Source: a virus
Strand: one strand, 5' to 3'
Virus record (IMG/VR): IMGVR_UViG_3300023179_000037
Location: 47,976 to 111,975 of that record
Length of the DNA stretch: 64,000 nt
In this document: positions 45,407 through 55,848 of the stretch, piece by piece
How positions within the stretch are numbered: the stretch's first letter is position 1
How the letters are laid out: every line of letters begins with the position of its first letter
Position numbers and translations under genes: made by a program
The notes under the pieces: model-generated
Told to the model about the DNA's origin: nothing
Seen by the model: only the letters and a program-made list of their open reading frames with translations
Databases searched by the model: none

Positions 45407-47200
45407 ATGACGGATATCGCTCACGGCATAACAATAGACTATTCTCGGGATAATTTGTTTGACGAATTAGGAATAAAAAGATTAAAAGAAAGTTATATGA
45501 AAGATGAGGAGAAAAGCCCTCAAGAAAGATTTGCTTTTGTGTCTAGAACTTTTGGCAGCAATCCAGAGCATGCACAACGATTGTATGACTATTCGAGCAA
45601 ACATTGGCTTTCATACAGTACCCCGATTCTGTCATTTGGAAGAAGCAAACGAGGATTGCCTATCAGTTGCTTTTTGACGTTTCTTCAAGATTCCGCGGAA
45701 GGATTAGTTAATACTCTTTCGGAAGTGAATTGGTTGTCGATGTTAGGGGGTGGAATTGGAATCGGTATTGGAATTCGTAGCGCTGATGATAAGTCTGTTG
45801 GCGTTATGCCTCATCTTAAAACATATGATGCATCATCTCTTGCATATAGACAGGGTAGGACTCGGCGTGGCAGCTATGCTGCATATCTGGACATTAGTCA
45901 TCCTGATGTACTTTTATTTCTGGATATGCGTAAACCAACCGGCGATCCTAATATGCGCGCTCCTAATCTTCATCACGGCATCAATATTAGTGATGATTTT
46001 ATGCGTATCATTGAAAAATGCATGATTGATTCCACCGCAGATGATACATTTGAATTAAGAGATCCTCACAATGGTTCTGTGCGAGAAAAAGTATCAGCAA
46101 GGGAATTGTGGCAACGTATTTTAGAATTAAGAATGCAAACAGGTGAGCCGTATTTACATTTTATTTCAACGAGCAACAAACATCTTCCTGAATTTCAGAA
46201 AAAGCTTGGATTAACAATTCGCCAAAGCAATTTGTGCAGTGAAATCGTTTTACCAACAGATAAAGACAGAACTGCTGTATGTTGCTTGTCCTCAGTAAAT
46301 CTGGAGTATTATGATGATTGGAAAAACGATAAACTTTTTCTTCGGGACATTGCAGAGATGCTTGACAATGTTCTTTCTTACTTTATTGAAAATGCACCCG
46401 ACACGGTATCTAGAGCCAAATATTCTGCAGTAAGAGAGCGTAGTATTGGTATTGGTGCCCTCGGTTTTCATGCCTATCTTCAGAAATGTGGATTGCCCTT
46501 TGAGTCTGCTCTCGCAGTCAGCAAAAATAAACAGATATTCAAACACATTCGTGAAGAATTAGATCTTGCAAACATCAAACTGGGAAAGGAAAGAGGTGAG
46601 GCTCCGGATGCAATTGGCACTGGACAAAGATTCAGTCATATGCTTGCCATAGCTCCTAATGCAAGCTCAAGTATAATCATGGGTAATACAAGTCCTTCCA
46701 TTGAGCCATATCGCGCTAATGCTTATCGACAAGATACTTTATCTGGAGCTTTTCTAAATAAAAATAAATGGTTAGATATTATCATTAAGGAAAAGTGCTC
46801 TGCAGATTCTAAGTTGGATTATAATGAAATTTGGTCAAGCATTATTGCAAACGATGGTTCAGTTCAACATCTTATATGGATGGATGATTGGACAAAAGAC
46901 GTATTTAAAACCTCTATGGAAATTGATCAAAGATGGATTATACAGCATGCCGCTGATCGCCAGCCATATATTGACCAAGCACAAAGTCTTAATCTCTTTT
47001 TCCGACCAGACTCAAACATTAAATACATCCATGCAGTTCATTTCATGGCTTGGAAAAATGGATTGAAAACACTTTACTATTGTCGTTCAGAAAAGATCAC
47101 GAAAGCAGATAAAGTCTCTCGTAAAATAGAAAGACAAGTAATTGAGGAATTAGATATGAAAGCATTGGTTGAAGGAGATGAATGTCTAGCATGTCAATAA
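45407..47200 (+). CDS. nrdA: Ribonucleotide reductase class Ia, alpha subunit
   Basis: A 597-aa large subunit. Catalytic residues are present: the first redox Cys in LPISCFLTF, N-x-C-x-E in SNLCSEIVLP, the second Cys in AVCCLSSVNL, the glycine-rich LSMLGGGIGIGIGI and the C-terminal CLAC (EGDECLACQ) used for re-reduction. It lacks the N-terminal ATP cone of cellular NrdA (about 760 aa), so dATP feedback inhibition is probably lost, as in other phage enzymes. An AATAAGGTAA site precedes it. It supplies dNTPs with NrdB 30 bases downstream. Confidence 0.95.
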   Translation: MTDIAHGITIDYSRDNLFDELGIKRLKESYMKDEEKSPQERFAFVSRTFGSNPEHAQRLYDYSSKHWLSYSTPILSFGRSKRGLPISCFLTFLQDSAEGLVNTLSEVNWLSMLGGGIGIGIGIRSADDKSVGVMPHLKTYDASSLAYRQGRTRRGSYAAYLDISHPDVLLFLDMRKPTGDPNMRAPNLHHGINISDDFMRIIEKCMIDSTADDTFELRDPHNGSVREKVSARELWQRILELRMQTGEPYLHFISTSNKHLPEFQKKLGLTIRQSNLCSEIVLPTDKDRTAVCCLSSVNLEYYDDWKNDKLFLRDIAEMLDNVLSYFIENAPDTVSRAKYSAVRERSIGIGALGFHAYLQKCGLPFESALAVSKNKQIFKHIREELDLANIKLGKERGEAPDAIGTGQRFSHMLAIAPNASSSIIMGNTSPSIEPYRANAYRQDTLSGAFLNKNKWLDIIIKEKCSADSKLDYNEIWSSIIANDGSVQHLIWMDDWTKDVFKTSMEIDQRWIIQHAADRQPYIDQAQSLNLFFRPDSNIKYIHAVHFMAWKNGLKTLYYCRSEKITKADKVSRKIERQVIEELDMKALVEGDECLACQ

Positions 47201-47230
47201 GTAAAATACTAGTATAAAACGAGGCAAATA

Positions 47231-48223
47231 ATGATTAAAAAAATAAAAACAAAGTTAACCGATGAAAGACAATATTTTAAACCCTTTAACTATCCTTTTT
47301 GCTATGAAGCTTGGCTTAAACACGAACAATCGCACTGGCTTCACCTTGAAGTTCCAATGCTCGAAGATGTAAAGGATTGGAAAAATAAATTAACTGAAGA
47401 TGAAAAGAAATTTCTAACACATATTTTTAGATTTTTCACACAAGGCGACATTGATGTTGCAGGAGGATATGTAAAAAATTATCTTCCCTACTTTCCTCAA
47501 CCCGAAGTGAGAATGATGTTATGTGGTTTTGCTGCACGAGAAGCTTTGCATATTGCAGCATACTCCCATTTAATCGAATCGCTTGGCATGCCGGACACCA
47601 CCTACAATGAATTTCTTGAATATGCGGAAATGCGAGAGAAACATGATTACATTCTAGATATCAGCTCAAAAAATAGTACTAAGCAATCTACAGCCGAACA
47701 CATTGCTGCATTTAGCGCATTCACTGAGGGAATGCAACTTTTTAGTAGTTTTATTATGCTTCTTAATTTTCCTCGTCATGGTGTTATGAAGGGCATGGGG
47801 CAAATTATTACATGGTCAATTGCTGATGAAACACTGCATTCTGAGTCTATGATTAAACTATTTAGAACATATATAGAAGAAAATAGAGAAATCTGGAATG
47901 ATGAACTTAAAGGAAAAATTTACACAATTGCTACCAAAATGGTGGAGCTTGAAGATAAGTTTATTGATTTGGCATTCGGCATGGTACGCGTGGCTAATCT
48001 GGACGCTGGTGACGTTAAACGTTATATCCGCTATATTACTGATCGTCGTCTTATCAGTATGGGTCTTAAAGGAATCATGAAAGTTAAAAAGAATCCGTTA
48101 CCTTGGGTAGAAGAAATGTTAAATGCCCCCACTCACACTTCATTTTTTGAAAATAGAGTAACCGATTATGCGAAAGGGGCAATTACCGGATCTTGGACAG
48201 ATGTTTGGGCAAAGACTGCTTGA
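47231..48223 (+). CDS. nrdB: Ribonucleotide reductase class Ia, beta subunit
   Basis: A 330-aa radical-generating subunit. The diiron ligands fit D in TQGDIDVA, E and H in AREALHIAAY with the radical Tyr 4 residues after the His, E in FTEGMQLF, and E/H in DETLHSESM. This is a Tyr-radical NrdB, not a Phe-type class Ic enzyme. ACGAGGCA forms its ribosome binding site. Its stop overlaps a zinc-ribbon gene by TGATG. With NrdA it forms the active enzyme. Confidence 0.95.
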   Translation: MIKKIKTKLTDERQYFKPFNYPFCYEAWLKHEQSHWLHLEVPMLEDVKDWKNKLTEDEKKFLTHIFRFFTQGDIDVAGGYVKNYLPYFPQPEVRMMLCGFAAREALHIAAYSHLIESLGMPDTTYNEFLEYAEMREKHDYILDISSKNSTKQSTAEHIAAFSAFTEGMQLFSSFIMLLNFPRHGVMKGMGQIITWSIADETLHSESMIKLFRTYIEENREIWNDELKGKIYTIATKMVELEDKFIDLAFGMVRVANLDAGDVKRYIRYITDRRLISMGLKGIMKVKKNPLPWVEEMLNAPTHTSFFENRVTDYAKGAITGSWTDVWAKTA

Positions 48224-50532: not shown

Positions 50533-51177
50533 ATGCGACTTCAAGAATTGGCAGCAAGATTAGTTGTAGTAGAAACAAAATTAGCAACTCTTACAGGGGT
50601 ACAACCCAATACATCAAGTCCAGTAAGTGTTGAGGAGCTGGATTCGAGATTATCAGTTGTAGAAGTACAAGTAGATCGTTTATTGGCAGAAAAAGCTGAG
50701 AAACAAGTTGCAGATATCGTAGCTGCTTCTCCTGATAAAGCACCAGTATCAGTTGCGGATATTGTTGCATTATCTGCTAGCTCAAATGTTCCTCAGGCTG
50801 CAGATATTGTTGCAGATGTTTTAGCTGTTCAAATGGAAGCACCCGCAATTCAAGATCCAGAAGTTGCAGCTATTGTAACTGCAGCTATTAAGGCAGTTAT
50901 AAGCGCTGATCCTGAAGTTGTTGCAGATCCTGCAGCTATCAAAGCAGTTATTACTGAAACTGTTGCACATATGCCTGCTCCTGCATCTGATGTTGAAGAT
51001 CAGGTTACTGCAGCAATTGCAGAAGTTTTAGCAGCAGCAACTGGTCAAGAAGTAACTAAAGATGAACACGAAGAAATACGAGATGCAGTGATAACACCAT
51101 CCGATACTGCGCTAGATGCAATTGAAGCAAGATTAACTGTTGCCGAAGCAAAGGTTGAAAGCCTGTTGGGAAAGTAA
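50533..51177 (+). CDS. Ala/Val/Asp-rich repetitive protein of unknown family
   Basis: A 214-aa acidic protein of low complexity. N- and C-termini carry similar leucine-zipper-like coiled coils (LAARLVVVETKLATLTG; IEARLTVAEAKVESLLG), with a copy also at SRLSVVEVQVDRLLAE. Between them are degenerate ADIVA and AAIKAVI repeats (VADIVAASPDKAPVSVADIV). GAA/GCA codons dominate. It has a strong TTTAGGAGAT site and its own leader. I recognise no family. The terminal coiled coils suggest an oligomer, perhaps a scaffold or DNA mimic. Confidence 0.6.
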   Translation: MRLQELAARLVVVETKLATLTGVQPNTSSPVSVEELDSRLSVVEVQVDRLLAEKAEKQVADIVAASPDKAPVSVADIVALSASSNVPQAADIVADVLAVQMEAPAIQDPEVAAIVTAAIKAVISADPEVVADPAAIKAVITETVAHMPAPASDVEDQVTAAIAEVLAAATGQEVTKDEHEEIRDAVITPSDTALDAIEARLTVAEAKVESLLGK

Positions 51178-51236: not shown

Positions 51237-51986
51237 ATGCACTACCGATCCATCTTCATATCTGATGTACATTTAGGTAGTAAAGGTTGTAAGGCGGAAT
51301 TATTAGTAAATTTTCTTAAAAATAATTCCGCTGATAAGTTATATCTTATAGGTGACATAGTTGATGGTTGGAAAATTCAACAAAATAAATGGGCTTGGAA
51401 ACAAGCCCATTCCAATGTAGTTCGTCGAGTCTTAGGACACGCAAAACAAGGAACTGAAGTATTTTATGTAGCCGGAAATCATGATGAATTTCTTAGACCT
51501 CTAATACCTTATGGTATATCGTTTGGTAGAATACATATAATTAATCAAATGTCTCACATCGGTATCGATGGAAAAAGATATTTGGTATTACATGGTGATC
51601 TATTTGATGGTATCTCAAGACTTGCTCCCTGGATAAGTTTTTTAGGAGATAAGGCATATGATTTACTACTCATCTTCAATACTTCATTCAATCGTTGGAG
51701 GCATAGATTCGGATTCGGTTATTGGTCTCTTTCTCAATTTCTTAAACAACGTGTCAAGCGGGCTGTGGACTTTATTTTTCATTTCGAGCGCAATCTCATT
51801 GACTATGGCCGTAAGCGTGGGTTTGACGGAGTCATTTGTGGACACATCCACAAACCAGAAATCAAAACCATAGATGGATTTGTATATATGAATGATGGTG
51901 ACTGGGTAGAATCATGTAGTGCTTTAGTTGAACATCCTAATGGTCGTTGGGAAATAATTTATTGGACCAAAGAAATTCCGGAATAA
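51237..51986 (+). CDS. PlcP/LpxH-like metallophosphoesterase (probable phospholipase C)
   Basis: A 249-aa calcineurin-type phosphoesterase. Metal ligands: D10 and H12 in ISDVHLGSKGCKAE, D40 in IGDIVDGW, N81 and H82 in AGNHDEF, H119 in LHGD, H203 and H205 in GHIHKPE. The pattern of SKGCKAELLVNFL, YWSLSQFLK and NDGDWVESCSALVEH is that of proteins often annotated UDP-2,3-diacylglucosamine hydrolase and shown in alphaproteobacteria to include PlcP, a phospholipase C that releases phosphate headgroups. An Agt-like glycosyltransferase, PlcP's partner, lies 2.4 kb downstream. An LpxH role is the alternative. Confidence 0.82.
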   Translation: MHYRSIFISDVHLGSKGCKAELLVNFLKNNSADKLYLIGDIVDGWKIQQNKWAWKQAHSNVVRRVLGHAKQGTEVFYVAGNHDEFLRPLIPYGISFGRIHIINQMSHIGIDGKRYLVLHGDLFDGISRLAPWISFLGDKAYDLLLIFNTSFNRWRHRFGFGYWSLSQFLKQRVKRAVDFIFHFERNLIDYGRKRGFDGVICGHIHKPEIKTIDGFVYMNDGDWVESCSALVEHPNGRWEIIYWTKEIPE

Positions 51987-52001
51987 TTTATAGGAGATTT
52001 T

Positions 52002-52145
52002 ATGTTTTTTCTTAATTTTTACAATCCATATTATTGGTACAATGTATTAAATCTATCAACAATGCAAAACACTGAAGAAGGTTTATCAAATAATGTAGAA
52101 GAAGATCCTCAGGATTTTGACATAGAAGTAGAGTATACAGAATGA
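52002..52145 (+). CDS. Tiny acidic peptide coupled to an ATP-grasp ligase
   Basis: A 47-aa peptide with an aromatic N-terminus (MFFLNFYNPYYWYNVLN) and a strongly acidic C-terminal half ending DIEVEYTE. A clear TAGGAG site and ATGA overlap with the RimK-like gene support expression. RimK-type ligases add Glu to a C-terminal Glu, so this peptide, ending in Glu, could be its substrate or a regulatory partner. That link is speculation; no family is recognised. Confidence 0.55.
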   Translation: MFFLNFYNPYYWYNVLNLSTMQNTEEGLSNNVEEDPQDFDIEVEYTE

Positions 52146-53053
52146 AAAATGTATGGGTCTTTCATTATGATTCCTTATCTGTTGAAAAAGATACTGAGAC
52201 CCGTAGTTTGGTTGAACGATTTAAAAAGCACGGTATAGACTGCAAAGTGTATCAACCAAAGAATTTTGATATTATTACAAGTCGTAAAAGTCATAAGAGT
52301 ATTCGCTATCAAGGTAGTCGTATTGAACTACCAGATGCTGTACTTGTAAGAACTGGTGCAGGAACAAACTATTTTACGCTGGCACTGCTTAGACAATTAG
52401 AAAACTTTGATATACCAATTATCAATAACAGTCAAAGTATAATGCATAGTAGAGACAAAATGATCAGTAGTCAAATATTGGCCCGCGCCAAGTTGCCTAC
52501 ACCAAGAACCATGTTGGTCAGTCATCCTATTAATATTGACATAGTAGAACAGGAGATTGGTTTTCCCTGTGTAGTAAAACTGGTAACAGGTAGTCAAGGG
52601 AGGGGTGTTTATCTCTGCAGAGATAAAGATATGTTTGTTAATTTAATGGATCTAACAGACAATCTTAAGAGTAAAAAAACTCTAATCATACAAGAGTTTA
52701 TTAACAGCGGAGAATTATTTGATCTTAGAGTTTGGGTCATTGGGGGCAAGACTATAACTGCTATGAAGCGTACACCACCTAAAGATGATTTTAAAGCCAA
52801 TATTACTAGGGGAGGTATAGGTGAACCTTTTGATTTAAATGAGGAAATTAGTGATCTAGCCAGTAAGACTGCTAGGGCATTTGATCTTGAAATAACTGGA
52901 GTAGATTTACTATTTAATGGTGAAAAATATCTAGTATGTGAAGCCAACAGCAGTCCTGGTTTTGAGGGCATAGATAGGTACTGCGGCACCAATATGGCCG
53001 AACAAATAGTTAATTATATAAGGAATAGAAATGATTTTCGATTTAGTAAGTGA
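52142..53053 (+). CDS. RimK-like ATP-grasp ligase
   Basis: A 303-aa ATP-grasp enzyme. The N-terminal domain ends at NSQSIMHSRDKMISSQILAR (substrate loop), followed by FPCVVKLVTGSQGRGVYLC (ATP-binding Lys and Gly-rich loop), LIIQEFINSGELFDLRVWVI (adenine and Arg), ITRGGIGEPFDL and the Mg-binding VCEANSSPGFEGI (E and N). These are RimK signatures. RimK adds Glu residues to the C-terminus of ribosomal protein S6; paralogues ligate amino acids to other peptides or cofactors. The target here is unknown. It overlaps both neighbours. Confidence 0.85.
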   Translation: MKNVWVFHYDSLSVEKDTETRSLVERFKKHGIDCKVYQPKNFDIITSRKSHKSIRYQGSRIELPDAVLVRTGAGTNYFTLALLRQLENFDIPIINNSQSIMHSRDKMISSQILARAKLPTPRTMLVSHPINIDIVEQEIGFPCVVKLVTGSQGRGVYLCRDKDMFVNLMDLTDNLKSKKTLIIQEFINSGELFDLRVWVIGGKTITAMKRTPPKDDFKANITRGGIGEPFDLNEEISDLASKTARAFDLEITGVDLLFNGEKYLVCEANSSPGFEGIDRYCGTNMAEQIVNYIRNRNDFRFSK

Positions 53054-53813
53054 TTTGCACATTGATCACTGGGGTCGTAGTTTTGAAACTGATTGGCTAT
53101 GCGATCAAAAAAGTGATATTCTAGTTGTTGCAGGAGATACTAGTGATAGTGTAGATATAACATGTGAATATTTACACAAGCTTACTAATTATTATACAGA
53201 TGTTTTAGTTGTTGATGGTAATCATGAACATCAAAATAATATGGAAAATTTAGAAGAATCAATACAATACTGGAAATCCTGCGTATCCCAAACATTGGCA
53301 ACTTATCTGGGAGATAAACAACCCACAATAAATGGTGTTAAATTTATTGGAATCTGTGGATGGTGGAGTTTTGATTTTGGCTTACCCAATATTAGCTCAG
53401 AACAAACTATATCTACATGTAAAGATCGTTATGGACTTACTGATATTGCAATTCAAAATCAAATGAATCAAAGTCTTCTAGATGCAAATCATATTACAAA
53501 TTTAATGGTGGAAGCAACACTTAATTCCGAAGTAAATGATATTGTAGTTGTTACTCATAGTTTGCCTCACTCCAGTTGTATTAGTTGGAATAGATACCCT
53601 CCAGATTACAATGTAGTGGGTTGCTATGGAAATACTAGACTGCAATGGGTATTAGACGCTGATATTAATAAAAAATGTCGCTATTGGGTTTTTGGACATA
53701 ATCATGATAGAAAAAATGTACCATATAAGTCTCTACGTTTCATCAGTAATCCTCGAGGCCGTCGTGAAGATTGGAACAGAATAGATTATCAAGCTCATAC
53801 GATAGAAATTTAA
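53031..53813 (+). CDS. Calcineurin-like metallophosphoesterase
   Basis: A 260-aa protein. Metal motifs: VSDLHIDHWG, VVAGDTSDS, DGNHEHQN, VTHSLPHSS and FGHNHDRKN. It resembles phage and bacterial metallophosphatases of broad class (phosphodiesterase, Ser/Thr phosphatase or nuclease), distinct from the PlcP-like protein upstream in lacking the LpxH-type Cys-Lys helix. It overlaps the RimK-like gene by 23 bases. The start (MIFDLVSDLHID) is fixed by the motif. Substrate unknown. Confidence 0.82.
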   Translation: MIFDLVSDLHIDHWGRSFETDWLCDQKSDILVVAGDTSDSVDITCEYLHKLTNYYTDVLVVDGNHEHQNNMENLEESIQYWKSCVSQTLATYLGDKQPTINGVKFIGICGWWSFDFGLPNISSEQTISTCKDRYGLTDIAIQNQMNQSLLDANHITNLMVEATLNSEVNDIVVVTHSLPHSSCISWNRYPPDYNVVGCYGNTRLQWVLDADINKKCRYWVFGHNHDRKNVPYKSLRFISNPRGRREDWNRIDYQAHTIEI

Positions 53814-53820
53814 ATAAAAA

Positions 53821-54402
53821 ATGAATTTTATCACAGATTGTGATATTATAAATTCTATAGATATAAATGATCTTTGGGTAATTGACAAATTTATATTGTC
53901 TAAGAAATTGGGATACTTATGTGGGCCGGCAGGGGTCCTTCCACCAAATGAAGGAAAATATATTGTTCGTCCTTGCATAAATATAAGAATGCTATCTAAA
54001 GGTGCTAAATTCATGTGGTTAAATACCATAGATGATATAATACCCGACGGATTCTTTTGGTGTGAAGTATTTGAAGGTCGTCATAGAACTTTTGACTACA
54101 ATTGGGGCAAACAAATACTAGCTGTTGAAGGTTTTAGAGACGATCCCGACCGATTAGACAGATTTAGCAGATGGACCAAAATAGATGATGAATATATACT
54201 ACCAGATTTTATTCAAGAAATAGCTTCTAGATATGAATGGTTTAATATTGAAACCATTGGTAATAAAATTATAGAAGCGCACTTTAGATATAATGATGAT
54301 TTTGCTAATCACAATGCCAAAACAATTATTCCTATTTGGAAAGAATATTTTTATGAAAGTCAAGAGGGCGATAGACTAGGATTTTTATTAAGATATGACT
54401 AA
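53821..54402 (+). CDS. Conserved phage protein with possible ATP-grasp-like features
   Basis: A 193-aa protein of a family conserved in T4-like aquatic phages: YLCGPAGVLPPNEGKYIVRP (about 32-51), CINIRMLSKGAKFM, FFWCEVFEGRHRTFDYNWG, and IIEAHFRYNDDF near the end. The final E-x5-N arrangement and the VRP strand recall the Mg-binding region of ATP-grasp enzymes, but the ATP-binding Lys loop is not clear. No firm function. It overlaps the next gene by 8 bases and sits inside the PlcP-Agt cassette. Confidence 0.55.
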   Translation: MNFITDCDIINSIDINDLWVIDKFILSKKLGYLCGPAGVLPPNEGKYIVRPCINIRMLSKGAKFMWLNTIDDIIPDGFFWCEVFEGRHRTFDYNWGKQILAVEGFRDDPDRLDRFSRWTKIDDEYILPDFIQEIASRYEWFNIETIGNKIIEAHFRYNDDFANHNAKTIIPIWKEYFYESQEGDRLGFLLRYD

Positions 54403-55405
54403 AAAGATACTAGTAATAACTGATAACTTAACAGATCAGATTAATGGTGTGGTTACAACCTATAAAAATCTTGAGGCGTTTGCGATTCGTGATGATTATA
54501 ACATTGTTTATATTACTCCCAATGAGTTCCGCCACTTTGATTGCCCTGTGTATAACGAAGTCAAGATTGCCTATCCGAGGTCGATGGGCACGAAGATTAA
54601 GAAGATCAATCCGAATTATATCCATATCGCAACAGAGGGTCCTGTGGGTTTGTGGGCTCGAGCATATCTTACAAAACGTGGTTATAGTTACAATACTGCT
54701 TATCATACTAAATTCCCTGAAGGATTACATACCTTGGTTGGAATACCTGAAACCATAACTTGGAAGTATATTAAATGGTTTCACAAACATACAGGCAAAG
54801 TATTAACAACTACAGATGCAATGGTAAATCTACTAAAGGAAAAAGGTTTGAGAGCAGAAATTATTCCTTGGACACGAGGAGTTGACAGATCTATTTTTAA
54901 TGATTCGCTGAGAAATAAATCTAATAAAGTCGTCAAGTTGGTTTGTGTTAGTAGAATTAGTAAAGAAAAAAATCTAGATGATTTCTGTAGTTTAGTTTAT
55001 CCAAACGCTGAGAAAATACTCGTGGGCGATGGCCCATACCGAGAAGAATTAGAAAACAAATATTCTGATGTAAAATTTGTTGGATTTAAAACGGGAACAG
55101 ATTTAGCTTACTATTTTGCCAATGCTGATGTATTTGTTTTTCCATCACGTTGGGAAACTTTCGGAATCGTAATGATAGAAGCCATGGCATGTGGTACTCC
55201 AGTTGCAGCTTATCCGTGTCAAGGGCCCTTGGAAGTAGTTGATCACGGAAGTACTGGATTTCTTAGTAACGATTTAAATTTAGCAATCACTGAGTGTTTA
55301 TCATTAGATAGAAATGAAGTGATATGTAAAAGTAATAAGTGGTCTTGGGAATCTGCTTGGAATATTTTTAAAGATAACTTAACGCCATTAGATAAAAAAC
55401 ACTGA
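54395..55405 (+). CDS. Agt-like diacylglycerol glycosyltransferase (GT4)
   Basis: A 336-aa GT-B glycosyltransferase. NGVVTTYKNLEAF (acceptor Gly-loop), YIHIATEGPVGLWARAY, NTAYHTKFPEGL, IPWTRGVDRSIFN, LVCVSRISKEKNLDDF, ILVGDGPYREEL and VFPSRWETFGIVMIEAMACG (E-x7-E) are all present at normal spacing; length is that of full GT4 enzymes. This form matches Agt, the bacterial glycosyltransferase that makes glycosyl-diacylglycerol lipids and is paired with PlcP in many aquatic proteobacteria. The middle (about 54520-54660) uses more GC-rich codons than its flanks. Acceptor identity is inferred from PlcP nearby. Confidence 0.82.
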   Translation: MTKKILVITDNLTDQINGVVTTYKNLEAFAIRDDYNIVYITPNEFRHFDCPVYNEVKIAYPRSMGTKIKKINPNYIHIATEGPVGLWARAYLTKRGYSYNTAYHTKFPEGLHTLVGIPETITWKYIKWFHKHTGKVLTTTDAMVNLLKEKGLRAEIIPWTRGVDRSIFNDSLRNKSNKVVKLVCVSRISKEKNLDDFCSLVYPNAEKILVGDGPYREELENKYSDVKFVGFKTGTDLAYYFANADVFVFPSRWETFGIVMIEAMACGTPVAAYPCQGPLEVVDHGSTGFLSNDLNLAITECLSLDRNEVICKSNKWSWESAWNIFKDNLTPLDKKH

Positions 55406-55447: not shown

Positions 55448-55470
55448 TATCCGAGCATTTGACTCGGATA
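55448..55470 (+). terminator. Hairpin, possible terminator overlapping the next promoter
   Basis: TATCCGAG (55448-55455), 7-base loop, CTCGGATA (55463-55470): a perfect 8-bp stem 43 bases after the Agt stop, then ACTTTTGG. The loop and second arm contain the -35 box of the following promoter, so folding in the upstream transcript and initiation of the next one share the same DNA. Confidence 0.55.
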
Positions 55471-55487
55471 ACTTTTGGTTATATAAT
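55459..55487 (+). promoter_or_regulatory. Early sigma70-type promoter P1
   Basis: TTGACT (55459-55464), 17 bases, TATAAT (55482-55487), then ATGGTATGATGAG. The flanks ACTTTTGGTT and ATGGTAT recur in the other early promoters downstream. The predicted transcription start falls on or next to the ATG at 55493. Confidence 0.85.
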
Positions 55488-55819: not shown

Positions 55820-55848
55820 TTGACATGGATTACTTTTGGTTTTATAAT
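55820..55848 (+). promoter_or_regulatory. Early sigma70-type promoter P2 with upstream CCCTTCAG element
   Basis: TTGACA (55820-55825), 17 bases, TATAAT (55843-55848), then ATGGGTATAGTGA. Just after the GIY-YIG stop comes CCCTTCAGAGTGCTCGGGCT, a sequence repeated before P3 and P4 in near-identical form; AGAGT and GCTCT within it can pair. This is a consensus-strength promoter. Confidence 0.92.

Follow-up and report, generated by a model that had tools for sequence, protein, structure and literature searches.

We analysed a 64,000-nucleotide stretch of viral DNA (hereafter the window), which is the final 64 kb of the 111,975-base IMG/VR virus record IMGVR_UViG_3300023179_000037, and found that it carries a cassette in which a PlcP-type phosphoesterase gene and an Agt-type glycosyltransferase gene flank three further genes. 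The two enzymes probably remodel the membrane lipids of the host and so spare phosphorus for nucleotides when a phosphorus-limited cell is infected; in bacteria, the two enzymes exchange membrane phospholipids for sugar lipids during phosphate shortage. This reading draws on the orthology of both proteins, their intact motifs, purifying selection, the pairing of plcP with agt, and the association with pstS and phoX and the Pho-box-like sites seen in related phages. The two genes are as follows:

51237 to 51986, plus strand: plcP, encoding a PlcP-type metallophosphoesterase of 249 amino acids, a predicted phospholipase C that would yield diacylglycerol; it falls within bacterial PlcP and outside LpxH.
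54395 to 55405, plus strand: agt, encoding an Agt-type GT4 glycosyltransferase of 336 amino acids, a predicted UDP (uridine diphosphate)-sugar:diacylglycerol transferase; it is an ortholog of the bacterial Agt encoded next to plcP.

A first-pass annotation had proposed this pair, and both open reading frames (ORFs) lie exactly where it had placed them on the plus strand, with all of the sequence blocks that it quoted present (SKGCKAE, YWSLSQFLK and NDGDWVESC in the first protein; NGVVTT, EGPVGLWARAY, NTAYHTKFPEG and PWTRGVD in the second). The identification of the enzymes and their link to phosphate stress are supported by the analysis described below, and the case as a whole has become stronger than the one made in that annotation.

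Relationship of the phosphoesterase to PlcP and LpxH

The 249-residue protein scored 49.5 bits against the Pfam Metallophos model (cut-off 21.5) and has the calcineurin-type two-metal site (DxH, GD, GNH(D/E), HGD, GHxH), whose metal-ligand positions D10, H12, D40, N81, H119, H203 and H205 were invariant among 48 aligned viral and bacterial relatives. The best viral copies were 71-89% identical to it. At least 595 bacterial relatives were found in a genome scan, and the best 80 of these were 49-60% identical to the phage protein and nearly all carried the names of proteobacteria, including Pelagibacteraceae. Identity was 50% to the PlcP of Pseudomonas aeruginosa (PA3219 ortholog), 50-53% to Pelagibacteraceae and 24% to Escherichia coli LpxH, while PA3219 and the PlcPs of Sinorhizobium meliloti and Phaeobacter are 46-47% identical. 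The enzymes verified as PlcP and Agt1 in P. aeruginosa are PA3219 and PA3218 (PMC8528852); our references are their presumed orthologs on a P. aeruginosa plasmid bearing the chromosome piece between azoR3 and cyaB, assigned by gene order and by the description of the neighbouring pair in the same paper. A plcP mutant of Phaeobacter regains lipid remodelling when it receives the SAR11 gene (PMC4796936).

Database annotation of the relatives as UDP-2,3-diacylglucosamine diphosphatase would make the phage protein the lipid A enzyme LpxH, and the solved fold nearest to its AlphaFold model (predicted local distance difference test, pLDDT, 84, weaker over residues 121-180) is indeed LpxH, at the 17-22% identity expected of a sister family. 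We nevertheless rejected this reading, which is exceedingly improbable, on model scores, genome content, tree and signature. The phage protein scored 53.6 and 50.8 bits against the two NCBIfam equivalog models for LpxH, far under their cut-offs of 134 and 190.35. All 12 bacterial genomes with a close PlcP homolog that were searched with the LpxH model encode a separate true LpxH (219-339 bits), and in 10 of the 12 the PlcP-type paralog also matches that model at 31-52 bits, as the phage protein does. LpxH stood apart in the tree on a 100/100 branch, and the viral proteins formed a deep virus-only clade inside bacterial PlcP, together with the P. aeruginosa PA3219 ortholog; the grouping within LpxH that would have refuted the earlier assignment was not seen. 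Finally, GNRD was present in 13 of 13 LpxH proteins and GNHD or GNHE in all 265 members of the PlcP set, and the phage protein has GNHD. By sequence, then, the phosphoesterase is PlcP and not LpxH, and its orthology predicts the phospholipase C reaction.

Relationship of the glycosyltransferase to Agt

The 336-residue protein scored 93.1 bits against Pfam Glycos_transf_1 (cut-off 26.4) and has the R/K and E-x7-E features of the GT4 donor site, with R187, K192 and E262 invariant in the family. Its best match in each of 12 plcP-bearing genomes was a single glycosyltransferase with 214-275 bits, the next best reaching at most 73. A glycosyltransferase of Agt type is directly downstream of plcP in 52 of 80 bacterial plcP loci, and the viral enzymes formed one clade (100/98) nested among these plcP-adjacent bacterial Agt proteins. 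Their sister group was the Agt of Pelagibacteraceae, with support of 99/96 and 96/95 in trees whose outgroup was partly made up of wrong ORFs from paralog loci, and of 94 (SH-aLRT, a Shimodaira-Hasegawa-like approximate likelihood ratio test) in a tree with corrected ORFs. Another 17 GT4 paralogs from plcP-bearing genomes split off at 100 in a quick tree with the corrected outgroup ORFs, so that the glycosyltransferase grouped with plcP-adjacent Agt and apart from the remaining GT4 enzymes that these genomes encode. The phage protein is 40-41% identical to Pelagibacteraceae Agt and 37% identical to Agt1. The agt gene of SAR11 directs synthesis of monoglucosyldiacylglycerol (MGDG) and glucuronic acid diacylglycerol (GADG) in E. 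coli (PMC4796936), and P. aeruginosa Agt1 forms MGDG from diacylglycerol and UDP-glucose (PMC8528852). We also considered a joint origin of both phage genes from one SAR11-like donor, which was unsupported: the Agt tree speaks for such an origin, whereas grouping PlcP in one clade with Pelagibacteraceae was rejected (approximately unbiased test, p 0.01).

GT4 is a broad family, the solved structures closest to the model of the phage enzyme (GT-B type, pLDDT 93.7, matching UDP-sugar GT4 enzymes) are BshA, PimB and similar proteins, and glycosylation of DNA is frequent in T4-like phages, all of which would suit a non-lipid enzyme acting on lipopolysaccharide (LPS) or another surface glycan, on teichoic acid or on modified phage DNA. 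Such a role is very unlikely, and other GT4 functions were rejected as the best reading, given the single strong Agt match per genome, the separation of the other GT4 paralogs from the plcP-adjacent Agt orthologs, and the presence of plcP upstream in all 65 viral loci of this glycosyltransferase that had at least 3 kb upstream. The DNA alpha-glucosyltransferase AGT of T4, an unrelated enzyme that shares the short name, was absent from the sequence matches listed and from the top fold matches. The glycosyltransferase is thus Agt by orthology, and glycosylation of diacylglycerol is its predicted activity.

Pairing and conservation of plcP and agt in viral contigs

Scans of viral contigs gave at least 597 relatives of PlcP and 279 of the glycosyltransferase, and the pair proved to be recurrent when it was sought there. 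In all 65 glycosyltransferase-anchored loci with at least 3 kb upstream, plcP was present upstream on the same strand, within 400 nucleotides in 57 of them; starting from plcP, 25 of the 64 loci that extend 2 kb downstream have an Agt-type glycosyltransferase there. Both samples keep best matches only, and these proportions are not unbiased frequencies. The commonest order was plcP-agt alone (35 of 106 distinct loci). Two other contigs (L005 and L011) share the five-gene order of the window, and plcP, a RimK-type gene and agt, with no other insert, were found in seven other distinct loci (L041, L072, L083, L111, L145, L153 and L026).

Both plcP and agt are under purifying selection. Relative to near relatives, the ratio of nonsynonymous to synonymous change (dN/dS) was about 0.04-0.12 for PlcP (dN 0.07-0.15, dS above 1) and 0.1-0.2 for the glycosyltransferase (dN 0.17-0.26). 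Together with the identities given above, these values place the finding far outside what chance would produce. Long matches to the gp23 capsid protein were present in 11 of 46 records searched, all 11 being plcP-bearing contigs other than that of the window, and gp23 and agt occurred together on L066, L097, L105, L137, L140 and L162.

Several other features of these loci were observed. The RimK-type ligase recurs as an insert between plcP and agt, and one possible role for it is to modify the head group of a glucuronic acid lipid. In 21 of the 106 distinct loci (e.g. L079:8698-9447, L074 and L054) the place of agt in the plcP run is taken by a GT2-family enzyme, which shows a weak GT21-type match and is perhaps a second kind of lipid glycosyltransferase. 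Of 123 distinct viral loci, 16 had a fatty acid desaturase gene in the vicinity of plcP (e.g. L036:4241, L074:13037 and L142:2000).

Phosphate-stress genes and Pho-box-like sites near viral plcP

The ORFs around viral plcP were clustered and then scanned against protein families, which identified PstS, the alkaline phosphatase PhoX, a porin-like ORF, fatty acid desaturase and ribonucleotide reductase (RNR) among the neighbours. Phage PstS scored 390 bits against an equivalog cut-off of 339, and PhoX of phage contigs (PF05787, 411 bits) heads runs of phoX-pstS-plcP-agt (e.g. L010:4246-6459 and L092:3530-5700). Such complete runs were found in 10 distinct viral loci, and pstS or phoX was in the plcP run of 23 of 106. 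In the close relatives L004, L089 and L096 pstS precedes plcP, and in the cultured SAR11 phage Mosig plcP is divergent from a PstS-family gene. Of 47 plcP-anchored loci, 18 had RNR genes no more than 2 kb from plcP (on both sides in 13), and RNR and plcP genes shared a same-strand run in 21 of 106 distinct viral loci.

Upstream regions were scanned for the Pho-box-like pattern YTGTMAY-N4-YTGTMA, which has an expected density of 0.004 per 250 nucleotides. Among distinct loci, a site preceded phoX in all 11, pstS in 13 of 31 and plcP in 20 of 121, as against none of 149 control genes (agt 0/81, segE 0/27, RNR large subunit 0/16, RNR small subunit 0/25); as the pattern had been relaxed from CTGTCAT after the top matches were seen, these absolute counts are post hoc, and the contrast with the controls is large. 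The phoX sites were 68-88 nucleotides before the start codon and were followed by a -10-like TAATAT or TACTAT. Altogether, 30 of 106 distinct viral loci had a Pho-box-like site 5' of plcP, pstS or phoX, and 21 of 78 bacterial plcP loci contained a site that scored at least as high in a loose scan; Pho-box control is frequent in the PlcP family, though it does not strictly define it. The connection with phosphate stress that the first-pass annotation had drawn from bacteria is supported in phages by relatives with phoX-pstS-plcP-agt operons behind Pho-box-like sites.

A porin-like outer-membrane gene was also seen upstream of pstS or plcP in several viral contigs (L023:250-1149, L066:5907 and L123:863). 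It is named from its sequence only and resembles betaproteobacterial porins by eye, a possible clue to the host.

Gene order and phage type of the window contig

The remaining genes in and near the cassette are as follows:

45407 to 48223, plus strand: large and small subunits of RNR, part of the nucleotide block 5' of the cassette (context).
50533 to 51177, plus strand: low-complexity ORF of 214 amino acids directly 5' of plcP, with copies in close relatives.
52002 to 52145, plus strand: small ORF of 47 amino acids directly 3' of plcP, with no assigned function and with copies in L005 and L007.
52142 to 53053, plus strand: RimK-family ATP-grasp ligase of 303 amino acids, a variable insert of the cassette (TIGR00768, 228 bits, cut-off 143).
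53031 to 53813, plus strand: second metallophosphoesterase (phrog_1649) of 260 amino acids, a variable insert found at the same place in L005, L006, L011, L013 and L014.
53821 to 54402, plus strand: phrog_3577 protein (a family of no known function) of 193 amino acids, a variable insert found at the same place in L005, L006 and L011.

The pair had been described as flanking three more enzymes. Three genes do lie between plcP and agt, and the RimK-type ligase and the phrog_1649 metallophosphoesterase stand as enzymes, but the third matches only phrog_3577, of unknown function, and the 47-residue ORF had been omitted. Copies of that small ORF, 51-58% identical, are at the same position in L005 and L007. 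The phrog_3577 gene overlaps the start of agt by 8 nucleotides. The 214-residue ORF, which matched nothing in Pfam and PHROG searches, has copies preceding plcP in L004 and L006 (77-79%). The cassette follows genes for RNR, dCMP (deoxycytidylate) deaminase and a nucleotidyltransferase, and its guanine-plus-cytosine content is 34%, as is that of the contig.

The contig is that of a T4-like aquatic phage. It has in common with SAR11 phage Mosig the clamp, clamp loader, RegA, polymerase, recombination nuclease and other replication proteins (69% identity for RegA and 56% for the clamp-loader ATPase) and encodes virion and tail proteins (phrog_1645 at 416 bits, and tail spike and baseplate families); a gp23 search of the window contig fragment gave no match.

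Two strong sigma-70-like promoters were noted directly 3' of the cassette, at 55459-55487 (11/12) and 55820-55848 (a perfect 12/12); both precede a region of small genes that reaches the contig end and are possibly early promoters. Elsewhere on the contig (L329:16816-18589), a thiamine-pyrophosphate enzyme is split into overlapping ORFs, one of 348 residues with the N-terminal and middle domains and one of 258 residues with the C-terminal domain.

Proposed function and alternative explanations

The reactions catalysed, the sugar donor used and the gain to the phage are predictions. PlcP, as a two-metal phosphoesterase, would convert zwitterionic phospholipids (phosphatidylethanolamine, phosphatidylcholine) to diacylglycerol and a phosphorylated head group, and Agt would transfer glucose and/or glucuronic acid from a UDP-sugar to diacylglycerol, giving MGDG or GADG. 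These glycolipids would take the place of the phospholipid and keep the membrane intact, so that the phosphorus demand of the host membrane would fall and phosphorus would be freed for nucleotides during infection. By rough arithmetic, there are 3e5 phosphates in a 150-kb genome and a few million phospholipids in a small aquatic cell, an amount of membrane phosphorus that could make a difference to a burst of modest size.

The purpose of the pair is judged from its context, which argues strongly in the relatives and more weakly in the window phage. Several observations weigh against the phosphorus-sparing function. Searches of the window contig, which may be incomplete, found no PstS, no PhoX and, over its whole length, no Pho-box-like site. 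The isolated plcP phages Mosig and S-SRM01 lack an adjacent agt, so that all known instances of the pair are on contigs from uncultured viruses. GT4 sequence alone fixes neither the donor nor the acceptor. Moreover, the product of PlcP is a phosphorylated head group and not free phosphate, so that phosphate recovery needs a further step; PhoX is normally exported and therefore would not act directly on the cytoplasmic product in the phages that carry phoX.

A candidate Pho box 5' of 50533 (minus strand) was rejected as a weak 11-of-14 match near chance level. Because the window pair is downstream of the RNR and nucleotide genes without a visible Pho box, it is probably expressed through the phage's own programme. 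We tentatively suggest, at somewhat below even chances, a broader scenario in which phages of phosphorus-poor waters carry a phoX-pstS-plcP-agt salvage operon that is controlled by host PhoB and swaps membrane lipid phosphorus for glycolipids, and in which the window lineage linked the cassette to the nucleotide-synthesis genes and added an ATP-grasp ligase, possibly a further modifier of the new lipid head group.

The same enzymes and lipids might instead benefit the phage through the envelope, with glycolipids altering membrane charge or receptor display to block superinfection or tune lysis, and with any saving of phosphorus incidental. The window copy without a Pho box is consistent with this, as is an island of surface-sugar genes on the same contig, outside the window at 11.3-25.7 kb (FkbM methyltransferase, GT10 fucosyltransferase, DegT aminotransferase, NAD epimerase and GT2; L329:11324-20000 and L330:1-5749), and the glycosyltransferases of pelagimyophages have been read as surface (LPS) modifiers (PMC7029224). 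We regard this explanation as unlikely, though the least so of the alternatives, as relatives have pstS and phoX near the pair along with Pho-box-like sites, and these, like the RNR neighbourhood, point to phosphorus and nucleotides; a pure envelope role would leave the linkage to PstS and PhoX unexplained. Still less likely, and highly improbable, is an origin of the genes as captured cargo or as misbinned host DNA that plays no part in infection. The missing gp23 match would fit that explanation, on a contig fragment whose completeness is not established; against it stand the T4-type replication genes shared with Mosig, the virion and tail genes on the contig, the 11 further plcP-bearing contigs that have long gp23 matches, the occurrence of plcP in a cultured phage, the deep virus-only clade and the low dN/dS. 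Sparing of membrane phosphorus thus remains the function that we favour.

Significance and comparison with known systems

The literature searched, which did not extend to preprints and most subscription journals, contained no description of a phage plcP or agt. Within that scope, the claim that the pair was undescribed on a phage is uncontradicted, and its novelty is provisional. One lpxH transcript is listed in a Lake Baikal virome (PMC9611531), and a survey of phosphorus genes in terrestrial phages is without plcP (PMC10987575). As a global ocean catalogue of auxiliary metabolic genes discarded glycosyltransferase-bearing contigs as LPS islands (PMC11360552), the pair may have been overlooked. 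The PlcP identity probably extends to many viral genes that now bear the annotation of the lipid A enzyme LpxH.

The phosphate genes of phages have so far concerned uptake, outside phosphatases and regulation; here, the target would be the phosphorus store of the host membrane. The pair would be a complete two-enzyme pathway, the bacterial versions of which are biochemically proven. If so, the lipids of infected cells should change measurably, and viruses might contribute to the glycolipids of phosphorus-poor waters. Viral membrane lipid remodelling for phosphorus saving thereby becomes a directly testable question.

By tree, length and motifs, the phage PlcP belongs to the same family as the PlcPs of SAR11 HTCC7211, Phaeobacter MED193, S. 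meliloti and P. aeruginosa, and differs from these in being viral, in a deep virus-only clade, with an activity that is predicted. It resembles LpxH in superfamily and nearest solved fold, whereas its 24% identity, clade and signature set it apart. The phage Agt is an ortholog of the Agt of SAR11 HTCC7211 and of Agt1 (PA3218), and is likewise encoded downstream of plcP on the same strand with its motifs kept; unlike the bacterial genes, it is viral, and three genes and a small ORF intervene in the window. Relative to the PhoB-controlled phage phosphate-stress operon of the pstS/phoA type, the window cassette has neither a Pho box nor uptake or phosphatase neighbours, and we consider it kin to that operon and not a member. 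Like the known phosphorus genes of phages (pstS, phoA, phoD and phoH, with Pho boxes in cyanophages), plcP and agt would be auxiliary genes of phosphate stress, with Pho-box-like sites and pstS or phoX in relatives, and to that repertoire the PlcP-Agt pair would add lipid remodelling.

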